The position numbers were made by a program, and so were the translations under genes. The notes below the pieces were generated by a model. The model was given only the letters and a program-made list of their open reading frames with translations, was not told the DNA's origin and made no database searches. Below, one piece after another: positions 30,276 through 37,384 of a stretch of 64,000 nucleotides of DNA. Source of the stretch: Bdellovibrio bacteriovorus W (GTDB lineage Bacteria > Bdellovibrionota > Bdellovibrionia > Bdellovibrionales > Bdellovibrionaceae); the NCBI GenBank assembly GCA_000525675.1, contig CP002190.1, forward strand, positions 1,488,001 through 1,552,000, read 5' to 3'. Position 1 is the first letter of the stretch; every line of letters starts with the position of its first letter.

Positions 30276-30321
30276 TTCCGAATAAATATCGAGAACTGGA
30301 GCGTCTTGTGTTTATTCGGAA
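30276..30321 (+). repeat. 11-bp inverted repeat enclosing the SD and start codon
   Basis: TTCCGAATAAA (30276-30286) and TTTATTCGGAA (30311-30321) are perfect inverted copies 24 nt apart. The space between them holds GGAG (30298-30301) and the GTG start (30308-30310). In mRNA this would be an 11-bp stem with the SD and GTG in its loop. Confidence 0.75.
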
Positions 30322-31105
30322 CATTTCTTTGCTAGGACTAGCTTATTTTCTTCTTGGTATCGGTGATATCAATAGCGGCTATCGTTTAAATCCTGGCGAA
30401 GAGCTGGTGGTCATTGCGGGAGCTAGTTGCCAAGCTCTTACAAATCTAGATAGTAGCAAAAGTTATTTCATTCCTACAAAGTCTGCAGCTGAACGCACCA
30501 GTCTTACAAATATCTCTCTACCTAAATTGATTGTCTCAACCTGCCCATCGACGTGTAAAGAAATACTCACTCAAGGTCGAAGTCGCGGAAGTGGTAATTA
30601 TCAATTACTGATGCCAGGCATGAGTCTTCAATCCGTGTATTGTGATATGTCAACGGCCGGAGGCGGCTGGACTCTCGTCACATATTCCCGCGGTGTTTCA
30701 CCTGCGGTCATCACAAAAGATATCTTCGTAAATCCAGTCAATACTGCTTGGTTAACAGATCGGTCAACAGCAGGTCGATTTGCTTCACTTGGAGCTGAAG
30801 TCTTTTCCAAGAGAGTGGGCTCCACAGATGGAATGTTTGTCTCAAGTGTTTATGGGGGAGGCGCTCCTTATATTGATCTAGCCATGGGACCTTGGAACTA
30901 CGATGTCGTTAAATGCACAGGCAATTTGAGACATACAAGCAGAACTGCAGGATGCCCTGGGCAAAATGCCAATGATAACTACAACTCAGCAGACTATTTA
31001 AATTTAACGGTTGATGGGGGGATGATCGGCATTGTTCCCAGCTATGGCCCAGAGCTCTGCTACAGCGGTCTAGGTAATTGTAACTTTGAGTTTTACTTGA
31101 GGTAA
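30308..31105 (+). CDS. Exported protein with fibrinogen-like GGGWT domain
   Basis: A 265-residue protein starting at GTG (GGAG 6 nt upstream). The N-terminal ~20 residues are a signal peptide (ISLLGLAYFLLGIG). Residues ~85-265 start with a Cys-rich SCPSTCKEILTQGRS-type entry and contain VYCDMSTAGGGWTLVTYS, the motif of bacterial fibrinogen-like 'GGGWT' proteins, which are surface lectin-like or adhesive. Later cysteines (CTGNLRH, GCPGQNA, ELCYSGLGNC) are paired as in such folds. It is the first gene of an operon with a small lipoprotein and an S74 fibre, so it may be an accessory or tip protein of the fibre (inference). Confidence 0.7.
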   Translation: MFIRNISLLGLAYFLLGIGDINSGYRLNPGEELVVIAGASCQALTNLDSSKSYFIPTKSAAERTSLTNISLPKLIVSTCPSTCKEILTQGRSRGSGNYQLLMPGMSLQSVYCDMSTAGGGWTLVTYSRGVSPAVITKDIFVNPVNTAWLTDRSTAGRFASLGAEVFSKRVGSTDGMFVSSVYGGGAPYIDLAMGPWNYDVVKCTGNLRHTSRTAGCPGQNANDNYNSADYLNLTVDGGMIGIVPSYGPELCYSGLGNCNFEFYLR

Positions 31106-31110
31106 CGGAG

Positions 31111-31392
31111 ATGAAGCTTTTAACTTTGCTCTTATTTATTTTAATGACCTCAGCTTGCGAAATGAGCGCGCGCCTTAGTTCTTTGGATATCCCGAAAGAT
31201 CTCAGGCCTCCTCAGAAGCCTTCTCCCAGTCCAGAGAGCTTCATCAGCAACAGAACACTCACGAGTACCGAAAATAATTATAAAGTCGATTCAAGTATTG
31301 GTGAAATTTTACCTAAGGTTCAGCAGACCACAGAGGATCAGTATAAAGTTTATATCTCCGCCCAAGGGGTTATATTTTCGGAGTCACTATGA
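31111..31392 (+). CDS. Small lipoprotein of the fibre operon
   Basis: A 93-residue lipoprotein: lipobox TSAC (Cys16), then a Pro-rich linker (RPPQKPSPSPESF) and a short tail in which two stretches resemble each other (STENNYKVDSSIGE and TTEDQYKVYISAQG). The ATG lies 5 nt after the upstream stop, and its own stop overlaps the fibre ATG by 4 nt (ATGA). It may anchor the fibre to the outer membrane (inference). No family recognised. Confidence 0.6.
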   Translation: MKLLTLLLFILMTSACEMSARLSSLDIPKDLRPPQKPSPSPESFISNRTLTSTENNYKVDSSIGEILPKVQQTTEDQYKVYISAQGVIFSESL

Positions 31393-34300
31393 AAAAACAA
31401 ATCCTGCACGTTTCAAAATTTGTTTTATTTTTATGTGTCTTTCTTTTGAAGGCAGTCAGCGCTTCTGCAAATCAAGAGATCACCTTTCAAGGAAGAATCT
31501 TAAAGCCAGACGGATATGCTTTAAAATCAAACTCGGTTCTTTTTGAAGTTATGATTCTTTCTAAAAATGAATGCGTTTTATACTCTGAAAATCATCGCCT
31601 CGATCTGTCTGTTTCCGAGGGTGTTTTTGCATTGAAGGTGGGTAACACTTCAGCGACGGATGTGAATAATAAAGCGGGTACTGAACTTAGCTCTGTCTTT
31701 GATAATCAGAAAACTCTCAATGGTCTTTCAGGGGGAGCTTCCTGTACAGGTCAGTATATTCCAACTGCAGGCGACACTCGTCGAGTCTTGGTTAGATTTA
31801 TTGATGAAAATAATCTACCAATGAATCCACAAACTATCACGAACTCAAATATTTCCTACGTTCCCTATGCGATGAGTTCATCATCTGTTGCTGGTTTTAA
31901 ACCTGAAAATCTTCTTCGCGTTTCTAATGAAAATCTTGCTCCCTTAACATTGCTTCAGTATCAAGAGTTTCTAAAACTTCTCAATGGCTCTTCAACACAG
32001 TTTGTGAGCCCATCAGATTCTCGTTTGACAGACTCAAGAGCTCCGACAGGGACTGCCAATGGAGATTTAAGTGGGTCTTATCCCAATCCAAGTGTTGCCA
32101 AAATTCAAGGCCAAAGCATTGCCGCGACAACTCCTCTAGATGGTCAGGTGCTTCAATGGTCTGCGGGTCTCTGGACTCCAAAAACTCTTCCTGCTGCAAG
32201 TAACGGAACAGTAACTGCCGTTAGCAGCACAAACAGCTACTTAACAGTAAATACTCCGAATTCAACTCCATCCTTAACCCTAAATGTAGGACAAGTTGCA
32301 AACACGGTGGCTGCTGGGGATGATGCGCGCTTCACAAACTCTCGCGCACCTACGGGAGCAGCGTCTGGGGATCTTTCTGGAAACTATCCAGCTCCAACAA
32401 TTGCGAGCCTTCAAGGGAAAGTTCTAGATGTTGCAGCGCCCGTTGAAGACACTTATCTACAGTTTAAAAATAATAAGTGGCAAGGTGTAGCTCTAGATAT
32501 TTCAGATGTGGGCGGAGTCGCAACCCTTCTTTCGGGCTATGTAAAGACCACGGACCTTACGACGACTTTAAATTCTTACACAACTCAATCAGCCCTGCAT
32601 ACGACACTGTCTTCTGCTCAATGTGCTGTTCATCAAGTACCTTCGTATAACGCCACAACAAAAGCTTTCGAATGTAAATCTATTAATACATCTATTGTTG
32701 GAGATGTTTCCGGAACACTCGCAGCAGCAAGTGTTGATAAAATTAAAGGTATTGAAGTCGACCTGACGGATGTTGCTGAAGGAAAAATTCTTAAACATAT
32801 CGGCGGCAAATGGGTTGCAGCCGATGATGCTAATACCATCCCTGGAGCCGCTGTGACGTCCGTAACCGCTGGTGGAGGGTTGTTGCTCAATGGAACTGCT
32901 GGTGGCAGCATCACCTCCACTGGTACTTTGAGTGTGAACGTCGGGACCTCTACGGGGCAAATTCTCCAATTCTCACAAGATAATAAACTTCCTGCCATCG
33001 ATGGAAGTGCTTTAACAAATCTTGCGGTGGCCAACCTCACTGGGACTCTGCCTATTTCTAAAGGCGGGACGGGGGCAACATCGGCATCTACTGCCTTTGA
33101 GGCTCTTTCCCCACTTACGACAAAAGGGGATCTCTTAGCACGTTCTACAGCGGGCTCCGTGAGATTACCCGCCGCAGTGGCAGACTATAAATATCTACGC
33201 ACCAACTCAAGCACCACCACTGGTCTTGAGTATGGGGATGTGGTTGCTACCGATGTTACAGGGGTGATTGGCACCGGAGTCGTTTATAAAACTGGAACTG
33301 GTTATGCCTCTCGTGGATTATCATCTGATCTTGTAGATCTTGGAACCACAATCGGAGTCGTCGCCGGAACCGTGGCTAATGGAATTTTTAGATTGCCTGC
33401 TGATGGTAAAGTTCCCATGGCGAATCTCAACACTGGAACGGGTTCCGGGCAAATTCCACTTTTGAATGCTTCTGGAAAAGTGCCGACGAGTTTACTAGAC
33501 ACAGGCACTACAAATGGACAAATTCCTCTTATTGGAGCTGGAAATAAAATCTCAACAGCGTTGCTTGATACTGGTACAACGAATGGACAACTTGTCACTG
33601 TTGGCGTCGGAAATAAAATTCCGACAAGTCTTATTGATACTGGAACCACAGCAAATAAAATTCCACAACTTGATGGTACGGGAAAACTGCCAAGTTCAGT
33701 GATCCCTGCGGGCCCTTGGGTTTTAGCAAGTCCTAAACTTTACCATGTCGCTGGTACACCAGGCACAGAGCGTGTGGGTATTGGTACCATTGATCCCAAG
33801 GCTAACTTGAGTATTGAAGGGGATGGAATCACAGGTTTTCAATTTAAAACTCGTGGGGCCTTGCCAGTAGACACTTTAAACTTAAGTTTTATAAATAATA
33901 TGGATGCCACTGGGGATTTTTGGATTTCTAAGGGGGATTCAGCAACTACAGCCCCTGTTGCAAGTGATAAATTATTTAAAATAACCAATGAAGGTGTCGT
34001 TGAGATCTTTGCGCAAATGGTTCAAGCGGGTAATGATAAATCCGGAATTCTTGGGTTAAAAACAAAACCTTCAAGTATTGGTGGTACTCGTGATGAAGTA
34101 TCTTTAGAATTCTATGCAGAAAAAGCCAATATAAATAGCTTAACCGGTTTTGTAGGTTATGAAAATCATCCACAATTTGACTTGATGCTGATGAATAGAC
34201 ATACAAGCGGCGCACTCATTCTGGGTACTAAAAACAATCATCATTTCTATATGGACTCCACAGGGAAAATTGGCATAGGGAATTCTGCACCCACAGAAAA

Positions 34301-34769
34301 GCTTGAAGTCACTGGCAACATTAAAGCCGGAACCATGTATGCAGCCGAGTATCTTTATACCTCTGATGCGCGCTTAAAGAAGAACATTCGCACATTTGAA
34401 AAATCCTTAGATATCTTAGAGCTTCTTCGCGGTGTTAGATTTGATTGGAAAGATTCTAACAAACCAGCCGTCGGCTTCATCGCACAAGAAGTTGAATCGG
34501 TAGTCCCTGAACTTGTAAATACTCATCCAGTAACAGGTCAAAAATCTGTGCAATATGGAAATATCACAGCGATTTTAGTGGAAGCTTTAAAACAAGAAGT
34601 TAAAGAAAGAAAAATAGCCTCTGTTCAATGTGAAAATGAAATCACAGAACTAAACCACGAAGTTCAAAAGAAAAATGAAACTCTAAAATCTCAAGTTCAT
34701 GCGTTAGAAATTGAGAATCGCGAACTGAAGCAAAGATTAGAAAGAATCGAAAAGGCTTTGGGATATTAA
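31389..34769 (+). CDS. Phage-tail-fibre-like trimeric adhesin with S74 self-cleaving chaperone
   Basis: A 1126-residue exported fibre. Signal peptide to ~27 (ALLKAVSASA). Residues ~30-190 are a conserved head (EITFQGRILKPDGYALKS...). The shaft (~195-780) is full of tail-fibre motifs: PTGTANGDLSGSYPNPS, repeated as PTGAASGDLSGNYPAPT, and GGTGATSASTAFEALSP. Four to five 23-residue repeats lie at ~670-770. A tip-like region (~790-990) follows. The C-terminal peptidase S74/intramolecular chaperone domain starts at Ser992 in SDARLKKNI, with the Ser-Lys pair intact, and runs through WKDSNKPAVGFIAQEVE, ending in a coiled coil. This is the architecture of the mosaic adhesive trimer fibres described in Bdellovibrio bacteriovorus. 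No phage structural genes are near. Confidence 0.85.
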   Translation: MKKQILHVSKFVLFLCVFLLKAVSASANQEITFQGRILKPDGYALKSNSVLFEVMILSKNECVLYSENHRLDLSVSEGVFALKVGNTSATDVNNKAGTELSSVFDNQKTLNGLSGGASCTGQYIPTAGDTRRVLVRFIDENNLPMNPQTITNSNISYVPYAMSSSSVAGFKPENLLRVSNENLAPLTLLQYQEFLKLLNGSSTQFVSPSDSRLTDSRAPTGTANGDLSGSYPNPSVAKIQGQSIAATTPLDGQVLQWSAGLWTPKTLPAASNGTVTAVSSTNSYLTVNTPNSTPSLTLNVGQVANTVAAGDDARFTNSRAPTGAASGDLSGNYPAPTIASLQGKVLDVAAPVEDTYLQFKNNKWQGVALDISDVGGVATLLSGYVKTTDLTTTLNSYTTQSALHTTLSSAQCAVHQVPSYNATTKAFECKSINTSIVGDVSGTLAAASVDKIKGIEVDLTDVAEGKILKHIGGKWVAADDANTIPGAAVTSVTAGGGLLLNGTAGGSITSTGTLSVNVGTSTGQILQFSQDNKLPAIDGSALTNLAVANLTGTLPISKGGTGATSASTAFEALSPLTTKGDLLARSTAGSVRLPAAVADYKYLRTNSSTTTGLEYGDVVATDVTGVIGTGVVYKTGTGYASRGLSSDLVDLGTTIGVVAGTVANGIFRLPADGKVPMANLNTGTGSGQIPLLNASGKVPTSLLDTGTTNGQIPLIGAGNKISTALLDTGTTNGQLVTVGVGNKIPTSLIDTGTTANKIPQLDGTGKLPSSVIPAGPWVLASPKLYHVAGTPGTERVGIGTIDPKANLSIEGDGITGFQFKTRGALPVDTLNLSFINNMDATGDFWISKGDSATTAPVASDKLFKITNEGVVEIFAQMVQAGNDKSGILGLKTKPSSIGGTRDEVSLEFYAEKANINSLTGFVGYENHPQFDLMLMNRHTSGALILGTKNNHHFYMDSTGKIGIGNSAPTEKLEVTGNIKAGTMYAAEYLYTSDARLKKNIRTFEKSLDILELLRGVRFDWKDSNKPAVGFIAQEVESVVPELVNTHPVTGQKSVQYGNITAILVEALKQEVKERKIASVQCENEITELNHEVQKKNETLKSQVHALEIENRELKQRLERIEKALGY
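33405..33710 (+). repeat. Tandem 69-bp (23-residue) repeats in the fibre gene
   Basis: Four near copies: units such as GKVPTSLLDTGTTNGQIPL, then NKISTALLDTGTTNGQLVT and NKIPTSLIDTGTTANKIPQ, each with DTGTT at the same position. They make up part of the fibre shaft and can vary in number by recombination. Confidence 0.75.
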
Positions 34770-35053: not shown

Positions 35054-37384
35054 ATGCCTGCGCGTTCATTGAGGTCTGCAAATTTAAAGCTCTTATTCTT
35101 ACTGATTTGCAGTTTGTTTTTGTTCGCGTGTACAAATCGCGAACTCCCACAGGTTTTAACTCTTAAAAGCCAAGTCTTTAAAGCTGATATTCAAGGACCT
35201 TTTCCTGAATCTGGTGGATCAACAACAAGCTTTTCCTGGCACATCAATTACCCACCGAATTTTCGCGTCGATTTAAGCTATGATCATGTCCAAATCCTTG
35301 GATCTTCTATCGAAGGCTGTCAAATTGAAGATATTTCTGGAGATCTTCAGCGCCGAGTTGTCTCAATACGAGGCTGTGAGGCTAAGAATGCCTCAGTATC
35401 CATCCAAATAGCATCAGGAAGCGCCACACAAGGTGGAGATTTTGCTCCTGTCATAAGGGGTTTTAGAGAGGCTAAATTAAAAGGGGATTTGAAGGTCGAT
35501 TTTTCCTCGTCTGCACCCGCTTTAAATAATTTATCGACCATTCCCCTTCGCTTAATCACTTCAAATCCTTTACTGAAATTGGATCTGAATCATTTTGTTT
35601 TAAAAAATACATCTTTGAAGAAGTTAGAAAAAGTTTCTGACTTTGAATGGGCCTTAGAAATAGAGCCTGTTTCTGATGGAGAATTGAAAGTTTCACTTCC
35701 AGAACAAACTCTTTTAGATATTTTTGGAAGCTCCAATGAACTGGCTGAAATTGAGTTTCAATCAGATCGGACTTCACCGTTTATTATGATAAGCAGAAAA
35801 ACTCCCTATGATACAATCACATTGGGCCAAAAAGTTTCTTGGAAGCTTGAAGTCAGTGATTCATCGGGCGCGCACTTTGATCTTCCAAATGCATCCATAA
35901 GCCTTAAGGGAGATCCAGATAGCTGTCAGTACCACTGGAAAGTCGTAGGAGCTTATACGGAAATCACAATCGAAGACTGTAAAAGTTATGGCGAAGTCTG
36001 GTTTGAAATAGGCGCAGGTTCTGCGGTCGATAATGCCGGTAATGCATCCGTCCCAACGACTTCTGAAAAGATCAAAGTGCTTGAGCCTGAGAATCCGTTT
36101 TTTGCCAATCAATTATTTATAACAAAATGGGATACGTCTTTAGAATCCAATGCCGAGCCCAGCAATCAAATTACAATTCCTCTAGATCTTAGTAAGTCCT
36201 ATAACTTTAGAATCGACTGGGGCGATGGCACTCATGAAAATATAACCAATACCGCACAAAATCCTTTAGGACGCTCTCTCTCGCATATCTATCCGACCTC
36301 TGGAATCTATACAGTTAAGATGATTGGTCAGATTCCCCGCCTTTCGTTTAAAGAAAATTCGAAGAGCCAAAATAAACTTTTGAGAGTTGAACAATGGGGA
36401 TCTAACGAGTGGGAAAGCATGGCTCACATGTTTTTCTATGCGAGGAATTTTGAATTAAGCGCTTACGATCGACCCAATTTGTCTCAAGTGACTGATATGT
36501 CGAGTATGTTTGAAGGAGCTATTAAATTTAATAGTTTTATCGGACTTTGGGATACTTCAAACATCAATAACATGAATTCAATGTTTAAATATGCTCAAGA
36601 GTTCAATGAATATATTGGTGATTGGAACACTTCAAATGTCACCGACATGGCTAGTATGTTTGAAAGCGCTCGTAAATTCGATCAAGTCATCACCCACTGG
36701 AATACTAAGAATGTCATTACAATGAATTCGATGTTCCTCAATGCAACAGCTTTCAATCAAGACATTGGCTTGTGGGACACGAGCTCAGTCCGGGATATGT
36801 CGAGTATGTTTGAAGCCGCATCCATGTTTAACTCCGATATTGGTGATTGGGACACCTCGCAAGTTAAATCCTTCTCTGGGATGTTTAGTTACGCTTCTAA
36901 ATTTAATCAATATATCGGAGACTGGAATACCCAGAATTCGCAAGACATGAGTGCGATGTTTTCAGCCGCTCTGGCTTTTAATACTTATATCGGAAAATGG
37001 AAAACCGAGAATGTTAAGAATATGAGTTCCATGTTCCGTGATGCCACCTCATTTAACGACGAGTTTATAGGTAATTGGGATGTCTCAAAGGTTGAAGATA
37101 TGTCGCATATGTTTGAAGGCGCGACTTTGTTTAATCAAAACCTTAACAACTGGAACGTTGGCACGGTCAAAAACATGAATTCGATGTTCGCACGAACGGC
37201 AAACTTCAACCAATACATTGGTACATGGGATGTTTCTCAAGTTCTTTCTATGAATTCGATGTTTCAAAACAGTAAGAAATTTAATCAAAATCTAAGTGGT
37301 TGGATGGTGAATTTAAATGTCACCTCAGTTAATTTTGCAAGCGGTGCCACAAGCTGGACAGCTCCAAAACCGGCCTTCCCTTAA
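35054..37384 (+). CDS. Surface lipoprotein: PKD-like domain plus BspA-type (DUF285) repeats
   Basis: A 776-residue lipoprotein (lipobox FLFAC). The first ~350 residues are two or three beta-sandwich units (GSTTSFSWHINYPP..., then a cadherin/Ig-like DSSGAHFDLPNASISLKG). A PKD-like domain lies at ~375-430 (RIDWGDGTHENI ... SGIYTVKMIG). From ~475 to 770 run about eleven 25-residue DUF285 repeats of the form W-[DN]-T-S-x-V-x-x-M-x-S-M-F-x-x-A-x-x-F-N-x-x-I. The BspA family binds host proteins or other bacteria in pathogens; here a prey- or surface-binding role is possible. GATAAG lies 6 nt before the ATG and there is no SD. It is convergent with the next gene (4-nt overlap). Confidence 0.8.
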   Translation: MPARSLRSANLKLLFLLICSLFLFACTNRELPQVLTLKSQVFKADIQGPFPESGGSTTSFSWHINYPPNFRVDLSYDHVQILGSSIEGCQIEDISGDLQRRVVSIRGCEAKNASVSIQIASGSATQGGDFAPVIRGFREAKLKGDLKVDFSSSAPALNNLSTIPLRLITSNPLLKLDLNHFVLKNTSLKKLEKVSDFEWALEIEPVSDGELKVSLPEQTLLDIFGSSNELAEIEFQSDRTSPFIMISRKTPYDTITLGQKVSWKLEVSDSSGAHFDLPNASISLKGDPDSCQYHWKVVGAYTEITIEDCKSYGEVWFEIGAGSAVDNAGNASVPTTSEKIKVLEPENPFFANQLFITKWDTSLESNAEPSNQITIPLDLSKSYNFRIDWGDGTHENITNTAQNPLGRSLSHIYPTSGIYTVKMIGQIPRLSFKENSKSQNKLLRVEQWGSNEWESMAHMFFYARNFELSAYDRPNLSQVTDMSSMFEGAIKFNSFIGLWDTSNINNMNSMFKYAQEFNEYIGDWNTSNVTDMASMFESARKFDQVITHWNTKNVITMNSMFLNATAFNQDIGLWDTSSVRDMSSMFEAASMFNSDIGDWDTSQVKSFSGMFSYASKFNQYIGDWNTQNSQDMSAMFSAALAFNTYIGKWKTENVKNMSSMFRDATSFNDEFIGNWDVSKVEDMSHMFEGATLFNQNLNNWNVGTVKNMNSMFARTANFNQYIGTWDVSQVLSMNSMFQNSKKFNQNLSGWMVNLNVTSVNFASGATSWTAPKPAFP
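36474..37300 (+). repeat. About eleven 75-bp repeats encoding DUF285 units
   Basis: Each 25-codon unit encodes a Trp-Asn/Asp-Thr start and a MxSMF core (for example WNTSNVTDMASMFESARKF, WDTSSVRDMSSMFEAASMF). Unit sequence is diverged at the DNA level, so these are old copies. Confidence 0.85.

Follow-up and report, generated by a model that had tools for sequence, protein, structure and literature searches.

Suggested base and tip partners, a lipoprotein and a lectin-like protein, of a MAT fibre in Bdellovibrio

Sequence comparisons suggest that a surface fibre of Bdellovibrio is served by two dedicated partners, a small lipoprotein at the fibre base and a lectin-like protein at the fibre tip. 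The three genes lie in a 64,000-nucleotide stretch of the chromosome of Bdellovibrio bacteriovorus W (assembly GCA_000525675.1, contig CP002190.1, positions 1,488,001 to 1,552,000), which is referred to here as the window and from whose first letter positions are counted. The linkage of the partners to such fibres is well supported, and the physical assembly of the three products is a hypothesis. On balance, we lean slightly towards the reading that the three genes specify one surface adhesin, in which the lipoprotein would serve the base and cleavage by the S74 domain would expose a YLYT end bearing the GGGWT head. The mosaic adhesive trimer (MAT) family to which the fibre belongs was already known; new are MAT fibres with two dedicated partners.

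Inspection of the open reading frames (ORFs) confirmed the original prediction of three linked genes, which lie on the same strand with a 5-nt gap between the GGGWT and lipoprotein genes and a 4-nt overlap between the lipoprotein and fibre genes; co-transcription is inferred. The features of the locus are as follows.

30308..31105, + strand: GGGWT gene, secreted 265-aa protein (ORF, family models, alignment with relatives)
30548..31102, + strand: GGGWT/fibrinogen-like domain, residues 81-265 (family model, alignment)
31111..31392, + strand: 93-aa lipoprotein gene of the MAT-linked twin-repeat family (ORF, family profile)
31156..31158, + strand: codon of the predicted lipidated Cys16 in MTSAC (family alignment)
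31261..31302, + strand: lipoprotein repeat 1, TSTENNYKVDSSIG, residues 51-64 (family alignment)
31324..31368, + strand: lipoprotein repeat 2, QTTEDQYKVYISAQG, residues 72-86 (family alignment)
31389..34769, + strand: 1126-aa S74-type MAT fibre gene (ORF, family models)
31434..31889, + strand: MAT N-terminal domain, NF053851 Bdello_MAT_N, residues 16-167 (model, N-domain tree)
34350..34361, + strand: YLYT, residues 988-991, predicted mature fibre C-terminus and marker of the GGGWT link (alignment, pattern scan)
34362..34517, + strand: Peptidase_S74 self-cleaving chaperone domain, residues 992-1043 (Pfam, S74 trees)

The source genome (G000) is complete (3.007 Mb) and belongs to the same genus as B. 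bacteriovorus, and the locus is flanked by ordinary chromosomal genes encoding a peptidase, an esterase, KhpA and a beta-lactamase-fold nuclease. On the same strand, 284 nt behind the fibre gene, a further gene (35054-37384, +) encodes a lipoprotein-like surface protein of 776 aa, in which many DUF285 (BspA-like) repeats accompany a PKD-like domain; it possibly forms part of the same surface-protein cluster. Chance could be excluded for the trio because two of the three proteins exceed the cut-offs of curated models and each pairing recurs in many genomes. The anticipated conservation of the linkage in relatives held for each pair and failed for the whole: relatives have either fibre-GGGWT or lipoprotein-fibre arrangements, and the order GGGWT-lipoprotein-fibre was, among the sequences searched, found in the window only. 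The trio was therefore rejected as a conserved operon.

According to the main text of Caulton et al. (2024, PMC10769870), Bdellovibrio relies chiefly on MAT fibres to recognise many prey. The B. bacteriovorus MATs described there resemble the window fibre in having a signal peptide, a conserved N-domain of about 130 aa (NF053851), a long repetitive stalk, an S74 subgroup with SDxxxK, and domains that double as interchangeable tips. They are presented in that text as single-gene fibres, whereas the window fibre has lipoprotein and GGGWT partner genes. The N-domain of the window fibre matches NF053851 with 104.5 bits (cut-off, 60), and its S74 end matches Pfam PF13884 with 59 bits (cut-off, 22), the SDxxxK motif being met by SDARLKK at residue 992; a coiled-coil-like tail follows the S74 domain up to residue 1126. 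Judged by these models, which bear out both the MAT type and the S74 domain with Ser992 and Lys that had been proposed, the fibre is a true MAT of the S74 subgroup, one of seven proteins with a MAT N-domain and one of three S74-ended fibres in its genome. Self-cleavage before Ser992 is predicted; trimerisation, self-cleavage and display on the predator surface, which the main text of PMC10769870 reports for other MATs, are inferred for this one.

The S74 end and the N-domain of the fibre differ in their relatives. In BLAST searches with the S74 end (residues 986-1126), the best matches were only GGGWT-linked fibres (51-57% identity). In a tree built from 49 S74 domains, those linked to GGGWT (nine, that of the window included) formed one clade (support, 100/99), and when six Bacteriovoracaceae-type sequences were added, all 15 linked domains still formed one clade (SH-aLRT, 93); the window sequence sits on a long branch, which leaves its precise position within the clade uncertain. 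In the tree of MAT N-domains, the window fibre falls in a part in which 34 of 46 fibres have a lipoprotein upstream, the other GGGWT-linked fibres lie elsewhere, and one of them (in genome G015) lies in yet another place. This tree was made with FastTree from few columns, and the locus sample was enriched for lipoproteins. As far as these trees can be relied upon, no fewer than three N-domain backgrounds carry the pairing of S74 end and GGGWT protein, and the window fibre is chimeric, with a lipoprotein-type base, represented by its N-domain, joined to a GGGWT-type S74 end. A genome-contig scan with the window fibre as the query found no relative; the scan was repeated with the GGGWT alignment, which brought in the Bacteriovoracaceae.

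In the 93-aa protein at the near end of this fibre, a signal peptide is accompanied by a lipobox-like sequence, MTSAC, with an atypical Thr at -3; the protein had no match among Pfam, NCBIfam or PHROGs models. It is predicted to be a lipoprotein from this pattern and from a Cys that is conserved in its family; lipidation is inferred. A family profile was built from six seeds, three from the source genome (the window protein being one of them) and three from relatives, and it retrieved members from many genomes of the order. Their alignment (56 sequences) contains the conserved Cys, a variable linker and two copies of T-x-x-x-Y-K-V, with the lipid-site Cys present in at least 90% of the sequences and followed mostly by Ser. 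The window protein, itself a seed, has the lipobox Cys, both repeats and an adjoining MAT gene. The family thus defined by two short repeats is apparently undescribed. Longer MAT-linked lipoproteins were also seen (L084/L171 in G025 and L263 in G097); that of G025 has an extra domain after the lipidated Cys and ahead of the twin repeats, which would fit a partner-binding role of the repeat end. The AlphaFold model of the window lipoprotein is of low confidence (pLDDT 63, pTM 0.25); it shows a signal helix followed by two hairpin-like strand pairs and is, like that of the GGGWT protein, too weak for structural claims.

The family is observed beside MAT genes in most cases. Of 61 members, 41 have a same-strand MAT gene no more than about 300 nt away: 27 lie directly upstream of it, 12 directly downstream and 2 between two MAT genes. 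Two loci (those of HD100 and L260) had been chosen for their nearby MATs and were left out of the unbiased count, which came to 39 of 59 lipoproteins picked by sequence alone, against an expectation of less than 1 under a rough model. About a third (19/61) had no MAT in the region examined, and some of these may serve MATs encoded elsewhere; in the source genome, one twin-repeat lipoprotein (L233, C1:2527584-2527841) has no nearby MAT gene. Three of the seven MAT genes of this genome are directly preceded by a lipoprotein gene, the two besides that of the window being located at 847 kb (with a 4-nt overlap) and 2087 kb.

The same arrangement was found in B. bacteriovorus HD100. Genome G004 was taken as this strain on the basis of its 843- and 627-aa ORFs, which have the published lengths of Bd2734 and Bd2740 and agree with their deposited structures (8okw and 8oks, respectively) in the crystallised tip regions, and of its 21 MAT N-domains, the number given in the main text of PMC10769870. 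In HD100, one lipoprotein gene shares 4 nt with the Bd2734 gene, the same overlap as in the window, and another precedes the Bd2740 gene. Out of six MATs tested by deletion in the work described in the same main text, it was the loss of these two that slowed predation or prey entry. A 210-aa lipoprotein that looks like a relative lies in the opposite orientation near a 626-aa MAT of HD100 whose length matches that of Bd2872. The surface element that binds the MAT N-domain still awaits identification, according to the main text of PMC10769870, in which no lipoprotein, operon or fibrinogen-like partner is mentioned; a literature search for a MAT-associated lipoprotein, limited to open-licence papers without supplements, returned nothing relevant.

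A known precedent for such a gene pair is SadBA of Salmonella, in which a small lipoprotein gene also lies directly upstream of a trimeric adhesin gene and SadB promotes the surface display of SadA (PMC3953254). It is possible, though we do not favour it, that the MAT-linked lipoprotein is likewise a periplasmic helper of export or trimerisation, with the GGGWT protein still forming the tip. The gene order and size class are those of sadB-sadA, and the short repeat region is predicted poorly when modelled alone, as would be expected if it folded on a partner. However, the residue behind the lipidated Cys is Ser in most members of the family, and Ser in this position favours the outer membrane under the E. 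coli sorting rule; SadB, in contrast, carries Asp there and is a folded trimer of the inner membrane (PMC3953254). Family-model searches found no sequence relation of the window lipoprotein to SadB. SadA differs from the window fibre in being a type Vc autotransporter with its own barrel (PMC3953254). The Ser residue favours the outer membrane only in so far as the E. coli rule applies, which is not proven for Bdellovibrio, and an anchor and an export helper cannot be separated by sequence.

At the other end of the trio, the GGGWT gene begins with GTG and encodes a signal peptide, an N-terminal domain of about 60 aa (..GYRL..FIPTKSA..) and one GGGWT domain ending in NCNFEFYLR. The protein matches NF040941 (GGGWT_bact) with 54.7 bits (cut-off, 30), and the YCDxxxxGGGW region is present; Pfam Fibrinogen_C is matched with only 22.7 bits (cut-off, 22) and over 45 residues. 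Its AlphaFold model is of low confidence (pLDDT 55, pTM 0.54), and a fold search with this model returned ficolins at TM 0.3-0.4 and an rmsd of about 9-10 Å, matches that count only because the sequence search agrees with them. Ficolins, intelectins and other fibrinogen-like lectins share the YCDMxxxGGGWT region and were matched by sequence and fold, but the match to the GGGWT protein is secure only over about 45-55 residues. These comparisons point to a ficolin-type fibrinogen-like lectin domain of which just the first third is secure. Relatives contain two to five GGGWT domains, those within the genus being proteins of about 480 aa with two; the window protein has kept the N-domain and only the C-terminal GGGWT domain (the type ending in FEFYLR), the first being missing.

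GGGWT genes were found beside S74 fibre genes across the Bdellovibrionota, in agreement with what had been anticipated. In nine Bdellovibrio genomes, the GGGWT gene begins a few nucleotides after the end of an S74 MAT gene and always downstream of it. In six loci of Bacteriovoracaceae and relatives, a protein with two to four GGGWT motifs begins -17 to +1 nt from the end of the S74 fibre gene, and further cases of this type have up to five motifs. Most relatives have the GGGWT-linked fibre without an adjoining lipoprotein. In two Bdellovibrio MATs (G020, G021; L092 3625-6882, L091 1530-4745), the GGGWT domain is the C-terminal tip of the fibre protein itself, and several large non-MAT lipoproteins also end in GGGWT. 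In B. bacteriovorus kdesi (L281 7232-7936; also L049), a fibre is reduced to a coiled-coil end joined to an XRE-like regulator ORF, and the two GGGWT genes behind this remnant are intact. GGGWT genes also occur alone: in the source genome (L034, C1:1013537-1016471), a tandem pair of secreted proteins has two GGGWT domains each and no adjoining fibre, and stand-alone genes are found in G022, G024 and others. A search of the literature (open-licence papers, no supplements) returned nothing relevant on Bdellovibrio proteins of the GGGWT or fibrinogen-like type, which within that scope upholds the view that a GGGWT partner of these fibres was undescribed.

The GGGWT link follows a particular type of S74 fibre. 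Directly before the catalytic serine, Y-L-[YT]-T is present in all 15 GGGWT-linked fibres, with Y, L and the final T invariant, and in none of 56 other S74 fibres. In a blind test, a DNA pattern for YLYTSDxR[LF]K was run across 369 Bdellovibrionota genomes, of which only 67 contain any GGGWT domain, and gave 23 hits, compared with none for the reversed pattern. One hit, in G214, reads YLYTTDDSFK in frame; it is not an S74 site and was discarded. Of the 22 real sites, 21 have a GGGWT domain alongside, within about 750 nt downstream in 20 cases and 3.7 kb upstream in the window. The sole exception, in G078, is a real S74 YLYT fibre without a GGGWT neighbour. It is followed by the gene for a 391-aa secreted protein (L391 5341-4166, - strand), whose product might serve as a head instead. 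Those multi-GGGWT proteins that lack an adjoining YLYT site proved to lie behind S74 fibres that have YEYT or YLTT. Related genomes are non-independent samples, so that p-values computed from such counts are not to be read at face value; the spread of the GGGWT-fibre link over two classes of the phylum, together with the rearranged order in the window, is a stronger argument.

This distribution bears on what the GGGWT protein does. It is unlikely to be an independent secreted lectin that is merely co-expressed with the fibre. Stand-alone genes such as those in G000, G022 and G024 would allow for that role, but so strict a link to a single S74 type, kept across two classes of the phylum with only a few nucleotides between the genes, and a partnership retained after rearrangement in the window, would not be expected of it. 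Less likely again is an assembly chaperone for the YLYT-type S74 fibre that is absent from the finished fibre. Phage tail fibres commonly have a downstream gene for a folding helper, such as T4 gp38 (PMC6851490), and the link does track the S74 type, which is the part involved in folding. However, S74 fibres already bring their own chaperone, one to five copies of an extracellular lectin-type domain are unexpected of a folding helper, and GGGWT serves two MATs, as well as unrelated large lipoproteins, as their C-terminal tip. Membership in a prophage or tailocin cluster can be virtually dismissed: the S74 end of the fibre resembles the distal subunits of phage long tail fibres and is common to many phage fibres, as is known for MATs, but only this end matches (PHROGs matches are confined to it), the N-domain is a bacterial MAT domain with a signal peptide, the partners are a lipoprotein and a GGGWT protein (the latter without a match in 50,697 phage genomes), and the neighbours are housekeeping genes with no phage genes near, so that a phage origin of the locus is refuted and the description of a fibre without a phage stands.

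The favoured reading of the locus as base factor, fibre and head draws on SadBA for the near end and on phage S16 gp37-gp38 for the far end. The S74 end matches S16 gp37 by sequence, and the S16 fibre tip (PDB 6F45) was the only solved structure found. S16 gp37 is presumably self-cleaved, which is in line with a chain longer than the structured part. The tip of mature gp37 carries the adhesin gp38, which is separately encoded and caps the end of a trimeric beta-helical fibre (PMC6851490), as is proposed here for the GGGWT protein. However, gp38 is a polyglycine-sandwich protein unrelated to GGGWT, and the window fibre, unlike that of S16, is bacterial and has a MAT N-domain and a lipoprotein partner. 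A tip of the gp37-gp38 type would therefore be an argument from likeness of working only, based on the linkage and the YLYT type, with binding inferred.

In the proposed assembly, the fibre would be exported from the predatory Bdellovibrio cell as a trimeric MAT, and the two repeats of the lipoprotein would most likely bind the MAT N-domain, either holding the fibre at the outer membrane or aiding its arrival there; anchoring is inferred. The S74 domain would fold the trimer and cut itself off before Ser992, leaving a mature C-terminus ending in YLYT, which could be the seat of a separate head. The GGGWT protein would dock on this end through its own N-terminal domain, the docking site again being inferred, and form a receptor-binding head whose fibrinogen-like domain is of a type that glycan-binding ficolins also have; glycan and prey binding are likewise inferred.

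Taken more widely, and only tentatively, predatory Bdellovibrionota may have fibre tips like those of T-even phages, in which YLYT, exposed by S74 self-cleavage, mounts an exchangeable and separately encoded ficolin-like head, and the twin-repeat lipoprotein may be the membrane element, long sought, by which the MAT N-domain is held. The lipoprotein family that travels with MAT genes provides a concrete candidate for that surface holder, and the GGGWT partner means that the tip of a MAT need not lie inside the fibre gene. The YLYT marker would predict from sequence alone which fibres carry such a head.
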